This document shows positions 1-2,431 of a stretch of DNA of 41,640 nucleotides, one piece after another. The stretch comes from Porticoccaceae bacterium. GTDB lineage: Bacteria; Pseudomonadota; Gammaproteobacteria; Pseudomonadales; Porticoccaceae. The number at the start of each line of letters is the position of its first letter. Within the stretch, counting starts at the first letter, position 1. A program made the translations under genes and the position numbers. Under the pieces are notes generated by a model. It was not told where the DNA came from and did no database searches. It saw nothing but the letters and a program-made list of their open reading frames with translations. Location: positions 1 through 41,640 of the forward strand of contig JAQWUP010000023.1 in NCBI GenBank assembly GCA_029242085.1. Reading direction: 5' to 3'.

Positions 1-1
1 C

Positions 2-655
2 AAGGATCTTATTCAAAAGGTCGCATCAGAGATCGCAACATCATCGATGCTCTCTCCGACCGAAGCTGGGCATCCTGAATCGGCCCCAGCTAATCCGCAG
101 CTGATTGATGCTATCAATCAGATTTTTGCGCTGTTCCAGGTCAATTATCACAATCAGTATTTCAGCGCCTTTGGTGACAATACTAAATCTGAAAATCTCG
201 CCAAGAAACTGTGGTTATCTAAAGTCAGTGATTTCTCGCCTGAGACTATTCTTAAAGCCGCAGAAAAGATAATCGCCGAAAGTGAATATCTACCTACCCT
301 GCACAAAATGCTCAATGCCTGCCGAGCCGTGGGTATGCCTGCTGGCCTGCCTACGCCGCGCAAGGCCTACCAAGAAGTTTGCAACAAACCCAGTCCCAAG
401 GCGGAGCAGCACTGGTCCCATGCAGCGGTCTATCTGTCGGGACGCGACTGCGGCTGGCACTTTCTGGCTAACAGCATTGAGTCAAAAGCCTTTGCGCCAT
501 TTGCTGAAGTCTATCAACAGTACTGTGATCGAGTTTTACGCGGTGAAGAATTTACTATCGAACCACCGCAGGCACTGCCGGAAACCTCAGAGGTCGCTGC
601 AAGTAAGGAACACAACCAGCAGCAGCTAGACAGTCTCAAGCAGCTTTTAGGTTAA
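2..655 (+). CDS. Lambda-P-like replication protein, 5'-partial (possible domesticated helicase loader)
   Basis: The reading frame is open from the window edge, so the true start probably lies upstream. An ATG at 47 exists but has no Shine-Dalgarno sequence. Counting from that ATG (202 residues), the protein resembles phage lambda P along its length as I remember it: an N-terminal helical part (about 19-45), YLPTLHKMLNACR (81-93, compare FLPSPGQFVAWCR in P), AGLP (99-102), WHFLANSI (137-144), and RVLRGEEF followed by a proline-rich segment ending LP (162-178). Lambda P binds DnaB helicase and delivers it to the origin. No phage genes are nearby and aceK follows after 6 bases, so a resident chromosomal role in helicase loading is inferred. 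I recall domesticated lambda O/P homologues being named DopC/DopE; this would be the DopE type. The family assignment is fairly secure and the role is not shown. Confidence 0.6.
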   Translation, partial: KDLIQKVASEIATSSMLSPTEAGHPESAPANPQLIDAINQIFALFQVNYHNQYFSAFGDNTKSENLAKKLWLSKVSDFSPETILKAAEKIIAESEYLPTLHKMLNACRAVGMPAGLPTPRKAYQEVCNKPSPKAEQHWSHAAVYLSGRDCGWHFLANSIESKAFAPFAEVYQQYCDRVLRGEEFTIEPPQALPETSEVAASKEHNQQQLDSLKQLLG

Positions 656-661
656 TGAATC

Positions 662-2431
662 ATGGCAGTGCAACCATTAATACATAACTCTACTGCACGA
701 CGTATGGCCAAAACCATACTCAATGGCTTTCGCAGTTACTTTGCCGATTATCTTAATTCAACGCTTAGCGCCAAGGCACGCTTTGAAAAAGCGGACTGGC
801 ATGGCGTTCAGCAAGCCAATGTCGATCGCCTCGAACTGTATAAACTAAAAGTTGCGCAGACCGTCCAGTATCTCGGCATGGTCACCAACAAAGATATTGC
901 CAATCTGGAACTTTGGCGTGAGGCAAAAACTGCCTACACTCAGTTGGTATTTAATTTTCCCAATTTTGAAATCGCCGAGACATTTTTTAATTCGGTGTTT
1001 AGTGATATTCATGATCATGACAAAATTGATGACGATATAATCTACGTGCTTTCCTCTCAGCTGATTGAAGCACCGGCCGCCGAATACAGCATTTTTGTCC
1101 GCTATGAAGGTGAAGGTTTTCGAGAGACATTCTATCGAATTCTGAAAGAGTCCGAATTCTCTTTGCCCGGTGAAGATATTCAGCTGGATCTCGATTGCAT
1201 TATGGAAGTGTTTAATCAAGAAGTAGTGCCAAAACTCAAGGGCCCACATGCTGAGATAAAGTTCGACTTATTGGAGTCAACTTTTTATCGCGGCAAAGCG
1301 GCCTATATGGTTGGTCGCGTGGTTGATGGCGATCAGCGATTTCCTCTGGCGCTGGTCTTTCTCAATACCGAAGAGGGCAACCTCTACGTGGATACAGCCA
1401 TTTTTAATGCCGACGACTTAAGCGTGCTGTTTAGCTTTACCCGCAATCACTTTATGGTTGATGCACCGCTTCCCTATCAGTATTCACACTTTCTTAAAAA
1501 ACTGATGCCGCGAAAACTCGATTATGAAATCTATAATTCACTCGGCTTTCCCAAGCATGCAAAAACTGAATTCTACCGCCAGCTAGTTGGCCATTTAAAT
1601 AATTCTGATGATGAATTTATTATTGCGCCGGGTATTAAGGGTATGGTGATGACGGTATTTACCCTGCCCTCGTATAATATTGTTTTTAAAATTATTAAAG
1701 ATAAATTTGCACCACCCAAGGAAGTCACTCATCAAATTGTGCGTGAAAAATACCGTTTGGTTTCACGCCATGATCGCATTGGTCGTATGGCCGACACCCA
1801 GGAATTTGACAATCTGGCATTTCCTCTCGATCGATTTTCAGATGCGCTTATTGAAGAACTGAAAAAAGTCGCGGCATCACAAATTGAAATTAGTGATGAC
1901 AGGATAGTTATTAAGCATCTGTATACAGAGCGTTATATGACGCCACTCAATATCTATTTAGAACATGCCAGCGATGAAGAAATTCGCAGTGCGATGGAAG
2001 AGTACGGCAACTGTATCAAGCAACTCGCTGCAGCCAATATCTTTCCCGGTGATATGCCGCTGAAGAACTTTGGTGTGACCCGACATGGTCGTGTGGTGTT
2101 CTATGATTACGATGAAATTGCCACCTTGACTGACTGCAACTTTCGCAAGATCCCCGAGCCCAGAAATGAGCATGAAGAGATGCAGTCAGGCACCTGGTAT
2201 ACCGTGGGTCCAGATGATATTTTCCCAGAGGAGTTTCGTCTCTTTTTCTCTGGCAATACCAAGGCTCGGAAAATGTTTGAAGAAATGCACAGCGATCTCT
2301 ACGAGCTGAGTTTCTGGACTAATTTGCAAGAGCAAATTCGCAGTGGCTACGTGGTCGACGTATTTCCCTACCGCCGCATTAAACGTTTTGATCGGGGCAA
2401 GGATTCTGCTCTGGAGGTTTTTTCAGACTAG
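662..2431 (+). CDS. aceK: Isocitrate dehydrogenase kinase/phosphatase
   Basis: This bifunctional enzyme phosphorylates isocitrate dehydrogenase to inactivate it and also removes the phosphate, which sets the split between the TCA cycle and the glyoxylate bypass. The 589-residue product is close to the 578 of E. coli AceK. It carries the nucleotide-binding motif APGIKGMVM (322-330), followed by the conserved TVFTLPSYNIVFKIIKDKF segment with its lysines, and an acidic YDYDEI motif in the C-terminal kinase part. The gene starts 6 bases after the lambda-P-like gene, so the two may share a transcript. Glyoxylate genes (aceA, aceB) are not adjacent, unlike the enterobacterial aceBAK operon. Its stop codon overlaps that of convergent gspB in the tetramer CTAG. 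Confidence 0.96.
   Translation: MAVQPLIHNSTARRMAKTILNGFRSYFADYLNSTLSAKARFEKADWHGVQQANVDRLELYKLKVAQTVQYLGMVTNKDIANLELWREAKTAYTQLVFNFPNFEIAETFFNSVFSDIHDHDKIDDDIIYVLSSQLIEAPAAEYSIFVRYEGEGFRETFYRILKESEFSLPGEDIQLDLDCIMEVFNQEVVPKLKGPHAEIKFDLLESTFYRGKAAYMVGRVVDGDQRFPLALVFLNTEEGNLYVDTAIFNADDLSVLFSFTRNHFMVDAPLPYQYSHFLKKLMPRKLDYEIYNSLGFPKHAKTEFYRQLVGHLNNSDDEFIIAPGIKGMVMTVFTLPSYNIVFKIIKDKFAPPKEVTHQIVREKYRLVSRHDRIGRMADTQEFDNLAFPLDRFSDALIEELKKVAASQIEISDDRIVIKHLYTERYMTPLNIYLEHASDEEIRSAMEEYGNCIKQLAAANIFPGDMPLKNFGVTRHGRVVFYDYDEIATLTDCNFRKIPEPRNEHEEMQSGTWYTVGPDDIFPEEFRLFFSGNTKARKMFEEMHSDLYELSFWTNLQEQIRSGYVVDVFPYRRIKRFDRGKDSALEVFSD

Follow-up and report, generated by a model that had tools for sequence, protein, structure and literature searches.

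The closest described relatives of the locus analyzed here are the DopC and DopE proteins of Cellvibrionales, reportedly described by Brezellec et al. in 2017, from which both names are taken; DopC is said there to derive from lambda O. Our locus shares with that system a P-like gene on the chromosome that is accompanied by a partner; the system is described from genomes that lack dciA and dnaC/I, and neither dciA nor dnaC gave a match above cut-off in the present, incomplete genome. The 38 named loci compared below come mostly from SAR92-clade or Porticoccaceae genomes, and Porticoccaceae are placed within Cellvibrionales in the NCBI taxonomy. The step that commits a chromosome to replication is helicase loading, yet DopCE has apparently been little studied, with only passing mentions in the literature searched; in a passage of a 2026 paper, DopE is named as one family of helicase loaders (PMC13326638). 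Sections of an earlier study report that Cellvibrionales lack dciA and dnaC/I, that DciA is essential for initiation in Pseudomonas aeruginosa, and that the secA-lpxC interval is the place of dciA in Gammaproteobacteria (Brezellec et al. 2016, PMC5109545). The window, i.e. the whole stretch of DNA analyzed, comprises all 41,640 bases of contig C20 from a 2.19-Mb genome that is 82.65% complete, and it opens inside such a pair. We read these overlapping genes, dopC and dopE, as a phage replication pair, domesticated long ago, which in this marine bacterium takes over the loading of the chromosomal DnaB from DciA, the loader of most bacteria, and give this reading a probability of roughly 0.88. 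The pair is real and conserved, and very probably functional as a helicase loader of the DopC/DopE kind. The mutual exclusion of P and DciA, the pairing with DnaT domains and the dnaB neighbor all fit the DopC/DopE of Cellvibrionales.

The dopE gene occupies positions 2..655 of the forward strand, in a frame that is open from base 2 to a TAA stop at 653-655; the window encodes residues 5-221 of a 221-residue product. Its assignment as a lambda-P-like helicase loader draws on profile, PHROG and fold matches, and on an overlap with C67, another contig of this genome. Window positions 1-118 are identical to the final 118 bases fetched from C67 (L070:11956-12073), so that the DNA upstream of the window can be read, and there the likely dopE start is an ATG 11 bases 5' of window base 1. 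Both contigs break inside dopE with at least 118 identical bases, which marks an assembly break rather than a gene end. The preliminary description, made from the window alone, had correctly reported a frame open to the window edge and ending six bases before a second gene, which starts at 662; this neighbor (662..2431, forward strand) lies outside the system and is presumably aceK, a name that was given there and does not come from a profile. The lambda P motif order that it had recognized is also present in the translation, which contains YLPTLHKMLNACR, AGLP, WHFL and RVLRGEE. DopE matches PF06992 (Phage_lambda_P) with 32.8 bits (E 7.4e-8), above the curated cut-off of 26, and PHROG 109, 'P-like helicase loader', with E 2.7e-15; it has no match among NCBIfam profiles, and in the Pfam, PHROG and NCBIfam searches it matched no DnaC-type family, in which it differs from the E. 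coli DnaT/DnaC system. A genome-level PF06992 profile search returned no candidates although the window's dopE itself matches, so negatives from that search tool need care. The predicted DopE model is of modest confidence (pLDDT 69), and its three best PDB matches are lambda P chains bound to DnaB (E 8e-5 to 2e-3), on which it superimposes with an rmsd of 12-13 Å across the whole chain. A PDB sequence search with DopE found no relative, and hhalign of this genus's DopE alignment against lambda P alone was not significant; the same alignment against the P protein of Pseudomonas phage VW-6S was significant (E 2.5e-10). Judged from profiles and modeling, DopE is homologous to lambda P and has a predicted lambda P fold.

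A lambda-O-like gene had been predicted just upstream. A partner gene does stand there, overlapping dopE by 89 bases, but it lacks a match to the lambda-O domain PF04492, carries three DnaT domains instead and resembles lambda O only in a short tail. This gene, dopC, encodes 375 residues at L070:10906-12033 on contig C67. Its 3' end, comprising the last 25 residues (ending DALSDRSWAS) and a TGA at 76-78, lies at window positions 1..78 of the forward strand, over the 5' end of dopE and in a different frame, and the remainder lies at L070:10906-11955. Three DnaT domain stretches are recognized in the protein by PF17948 (225 bits, E 4.6e-68, cut-off 25). Alignment A3, made of 25 DopC from 25 of the 38 named loci, gave the same picture: all 25 match PF17948, and at E 0.01 none matches a further Pfam family, PF04492 included. 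Since hhalign of DopC against lambda O was not significant either, we rejected descent of the whole of DopC from lambda O. Within this genome's DopC, residues 2-82 match PHROG 6493, 'DnaD-like helicase loader' (E 7e-7). For one A3 DopC, structure prediction gave a model (pLDDT 74.7) that opens with a mixed helix-strand domain and continues in helices; its best fold matches are initiator/Rep domains (4pt7, 4pql, 5kbj), the DnaD N-terminal domain (2v79) and, as a likeness to E. coli DnaT beyond the DnaT domain itself, DnaT84-153 with single-stranded DNA (4ou6, E 0.11); none reached E 0.001, the best being 0.022, and they were allotted to the two halves of DopC by kind of match, from a table without ranges. 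By sequence, DopC is thus composed of three DnaT modules and a phage-like tail, with no lambda-O domain. It differs in this from DopC as reportedly described in 2017: here the lambda-O domain is missing, three DnaT domains are present (one elsewhere), and only the tail is common to lambda O. Neither the DnaT make-up nor the tail was found in the literature searched, which did not extend to the 2017 paper, and we claim no priority for them.

To place this architecture more widely, 36 chromosomal loci were chosen by hand among those fetched, in most cases one or two from each family. In all 36 a DopC match adjoins the P-like gene, and a model built from these same proteins assigns 25 to a three-DnaT form and 11 to a one-DnaT form; Pfam DnaT counts per genome in the order-wide survey described below range from 1 to 6. 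Seven loci from families f2, f8 and f34 have a short one-DnaT form, beside which metG is found in six (not L081) and mrp in six (L138 was not resolved), and families f6, f26 and f37 have a one-DnaT DopC of 281-317 aa. Several f34 genomes are rich in P-like matches (5, 4 and 10 in G055, G113 and G137), the resident pairs of G055 and G137 being L128 and L127.

The short C-terminal tail is the one part of DopC with a counterpart in phage O. D-x-[SD]-W occurs near the C-terminus of all 36 chromosomal DopC of the order (DRSWAS here), and the pattern tested, [DN]x[SDG]W within the last 20 residues, likewise fits 36/36. Lambda O ends LTNTDWIYGVDL, its tail tryptophan being residue 293. The strict pattern was fixed, ahead of any look at the viral set, on the sequences read first, namely the chromosomal DopC and ten phage O-position proteins adjoining P; seven of these ten have it (not P12026, phiARM81mr or the G028 prophage). 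From GenBank, eleven more relatives of lambda O were chosen by hand: the strict tail is present in four of the five annotated next to P (phiES15 is without it) and in none of the six not so annotated, which include P22 gp18 as well as two that precede DnaC. Taken together, the phage O proteins that were read one by one beside P carry it in 11 of 15 cases and are without it in four. Four P queries (lambda, MPK9, VW-6S and the G028-prophage P) then gave 198 viral loci, among them close relatives of several first-read phages, with an O-position ORF called in 190. The strict pattern fits 134 of these, 75 of them from one lambda-like cluster, and a broad pattern ([DN], one to three residues, W), chosen after the tails were seen, fits 189. 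Among 50%-identity cluster representatives, the strict tail is present in 9/19 against 1/210 control clusters (Fisher 2e-10) and the broad tail in 18/19 against 16/210 (1.6e-16).

Published work on lambda offers a use for such a peptide. A passage in Hayes et al. (2018, PMC6022878) describes a lambda O allele missing the last five of its 299 residues as inactive, and work cited there assigns O binding to the N-terminal and DnaB binding to the C-terminal region of lambda P; a section of another paper describes a lambda P helix set against the DnaB linker helix (PMC6391071). From these reports, and from the conservation of the tail beside P, we infer that the DopC tail contacts DopE, and propose that it recruits the DopE-DnaB complex. 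The tail is encoded over the dopE start, so conservation of the DopE N-terminus (SPTxAG) may partly reflect that of the tail; phages with almost no overlap between O and P (lambda, MPK9) retain the tail too. The locus thus resembles lambda O/P in its P homology, predicted P fold, gene order and partner tail, and differs from it in the absence from DopC of PF04492 and of any hhalign alignment with lambda O. The VW-6S pair (L142) is similar in having a DnaT domain before P, significant P similarity and the tail, and differs in its one DnaT domain, its 4-base gene overlap and a non-significant hhalign of its O protein with DopC.

The preliminary description had named dciA and dnaC among the genes to look for. 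Neither gave a match above cut-off in this 82.65% complete genome: PF05258 (DciA, cut-off 24) yielded one sub-threshold match of 12.8 bits, and all matches to PF01695 (dnaC) fell below cut-off. A DnaB_C family search of the genome found one dnaB and a weak match inside the radA frame. In the usual place of dciA, lpxC, a peptidase-like gene and secA are consecutive, with 41 and 80 bases between them; the peptidase-like gene shares 49% identity with the gene that follows lpxC-dciA in the DciA-bearing genome G026, and two DciA queries against 16 kb of this region found nothing better than E 0.5. By gene order and homology search, dciA is absent from its usual place in this genome. The likeness of DopCE to DciA is one of proposed role only, as no sequence relation was seen between them.

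This pattern extends across relatives. Among 36 relatives, DopE was found in 31 and DciA in two, never together; in the three with neither (71-84% complete) a repeat DciA search found none. An order survey of 293 genomes, all at least 90% complete except the window's own, found P in 187 and DciA in 90, with six genomes having both and 22 having neither at the thresholds used; a DnaT domain was found in 183. Of the 22, G056 and G064 come from two families (f35 and f42) in which several DciA matches fall close to the cut-off. The genomes with both (G078, G154, G233, G268, G288, G290) have P E-values of 7e-31 or weaker, scores that prophages might give, and only one of the six has a DnaT domain; the P score of G048, which is without DciA, is also only 4e-26. 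G255 (f28) is the only surveyed genome with DnaT and DciA but without P. Like G233 (f21), with its weak P match, it is a DciA-bearing genome with a DnaT-domain match, possibly owed to a phage with a DnaT-type O.

A DnaT-domain gene accompanies P in 181/181 genomes with P and without DciA, which bears on the idea that the P-like protein is kept as a brake on DnaB, regulatory or anti-phage, and not as a loader. Expressed lambda P is lethal, and a passage of PMC3640518 puts forward DnaB sequestering as a hypothesis to explain this; the constant DnaT partner, the lack of any PADLOC match and the lack of another loader above cut-off in this genome make a brake the least credible of the readings considered. 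The DnaT domains also raise the question of whether the main work of DopCE is replication restart, in the manner of a DnaT-like primosome, with loading at the origin left to an unrecognized loader. Sections of two papers place E. coli DnaT in fork restart (PMC4132743, PMC13220808), and DopC is built of DnaT domains; yet P excludes DciA, which is itself reported in part of PMC5109545 to be essential for initiation in P. aeruginosa, and dciA is missing from its place here, so that we consider a role mainly in restart unlikely. Under our preferred reading of DopCE as the chromosomal loader, DopE would grip DnaB and open its ring as lambda P does, the three DnaT domains of DopC would bind single-stranded DNA while its N-terminal winged-helix-like domain docks at the initiation site, and its C-terminal D-x-S-W tail would be offered to the N-terminal part of DopE. 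DnaB would thereby be brought to exposed single-stranded DNA at the origin, presumably oriC, and perhaps at forks that have stalled. Taken with the missing dciA and the dnaB neighbor, the domains and the phage-O-like tail of DopC make up a mechanism testable in Cellvibrionales laboratory strains.

Genomic context also bears on whether the P-like gene is a prophage or its remnant, serving phage replication only. Upstream of dopC on C67 lie, as named by eye, a dehydrogenase-like gene, an acetyltransferase-like gene and a divergent radA; the short-chain dehydrogenase-like gene (L070:10179-10856), between the acetyltransferase-like gene and dopC, is missing in L004. No phage genes were seen by eye in 12 kb upstream or among window ORFs of at least 150 aa, in agreement with the preliminary description of the window. 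Among the 38 named loci, a script called ORFs for both dopC and dopE in 35; the other three are L008 and L033, for which no P ORF was called, and L034, which a contig end truncates. The two genes overlap by 83-107 bases in 34 loci and by 299 in L026, whose ORF was taken from a start further upstream. In 36/38 the aceK position after dopE holds an ORF exceeding 400 aa (exceptions L032 and L037). Conservation beside aceK, which the preliminary description had raised, thus holds in the window's own genus and family, but in other families radA is the usual dopCE neighbor, with dnaB in five among the families read. For 20 of the 25 three-DnaT loci, the fetched stretch includes RadA, and L037 has a fragment of it. 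In five loci from five families (L077, L084, L085, L086, L131), dnaB flanks dopE on its other side in convergent orientation, separated from it by no more than one ORF (L086 was judged by eye).

Outside the overlap, dN/dS against L001-L004 is 0.031-0.044 for DopE, indicating that the gene is maintained, and 0.040-0.063 for DopC; aceK gives 0.016-0.055 in the three usable pairs of four. The values against L001 (DopE 0.035, DopC 0.063, aceK 0.025) are the most reliable, because dS exceeds 1 for L002-L004. P genes are of phage origin, and one surveyed genome, G028, has a prophage-like pair (L080) with integrase-like and SSB-like ORFs by eye, as a prophage reading would expect. Against it, phage P proteins match DopE at only 26-33% identity and in only 19 of 50,697 records, and DopC in none; two scans of viral contigs with single DopE queries, whose reach is close relatives only, found none. 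Together with the ordinary cellular neighbors, the conserved position and the purifying selection on dopE, on which we reject a prophage remnant, this makes a phage-serving gene very improbable. The domesticated lambda-P-type loader that the preliminary description had suggested is supported by the profile match, by the absence of visible prophage genes upstream and by the presence of the gene in close relatives.

In phylogenetic trees, the 36 chromosomal DopE fall on one side and 11 phage or prophage P proteins on the other (support 87/56, not starred). Separate domestications of the DopC types were considered and rejected, as both trees keep all chromosomal DopE together, with moderate support (88/80 in the second, also not starred). 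A placement of the metG/mrp type with Pseudomonas phages was rejected (p 7.6e-6), as was that of the f6/f26/f37 type, less strongly (p 0.022), in tests whose groups were named only once the tree was known. Congruence with RadA gave r 0.46 over 20 loci (reached by 0/5000 permutations); with one row per family r falls to 0.23 (390/5000 permutations), so vertical descent between families is not established by RadA congruence. DnaT-bearing partners also occur in phages: such a protein precedes P in VW-6S, and among the 190 viral O-position proteins, 33 match DnaT with an i-E of 1 or better. A broader scheme, which we hold tentatively and at slightly less than even odds, is that P-type loaders recognize their partners via a peptide at the C-terminus ([DN]-x-[SDG]-W plus a short end) that is portable and was kept while the DNA-binding part was swapped from a lambda-O winged helix to DnaT arrays. 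A single domestication, early in a large part of the order, would then have replaced DciA and combined an origin recruiter with a DnaT-type single-stranded DNA adaptor, giving a single protein with a possible part in initiation and fork restart alike.

Beyond the order, a class survey of 232 genomes found three that match at E 1e-30: the window's own, G386 and G470. G386 has DciA, and the ORF before its P match is not DopC by blastp. G470, a 1.19-Mb single-contig genome from another order (34% G+C in the fetched stretch), has a DopC-DopE pair (L368, G470:C1:184000-198000) in which two DnaT domains are clear, and it gave no DciA match; its DopC ends NDKEWAVDIEN, fitting the broad tail pattern only, and its DopE falls inside the three-DnaT clade (95/97), with a long branch and odd composition. 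Within the order, G028 carries a resident dopCE (L079) alongside its prophage-like O/P pair (L080, G028:C14:90000-108000), whose partner has a lambda-O domain and no tail, and so provides a side-by-side control.
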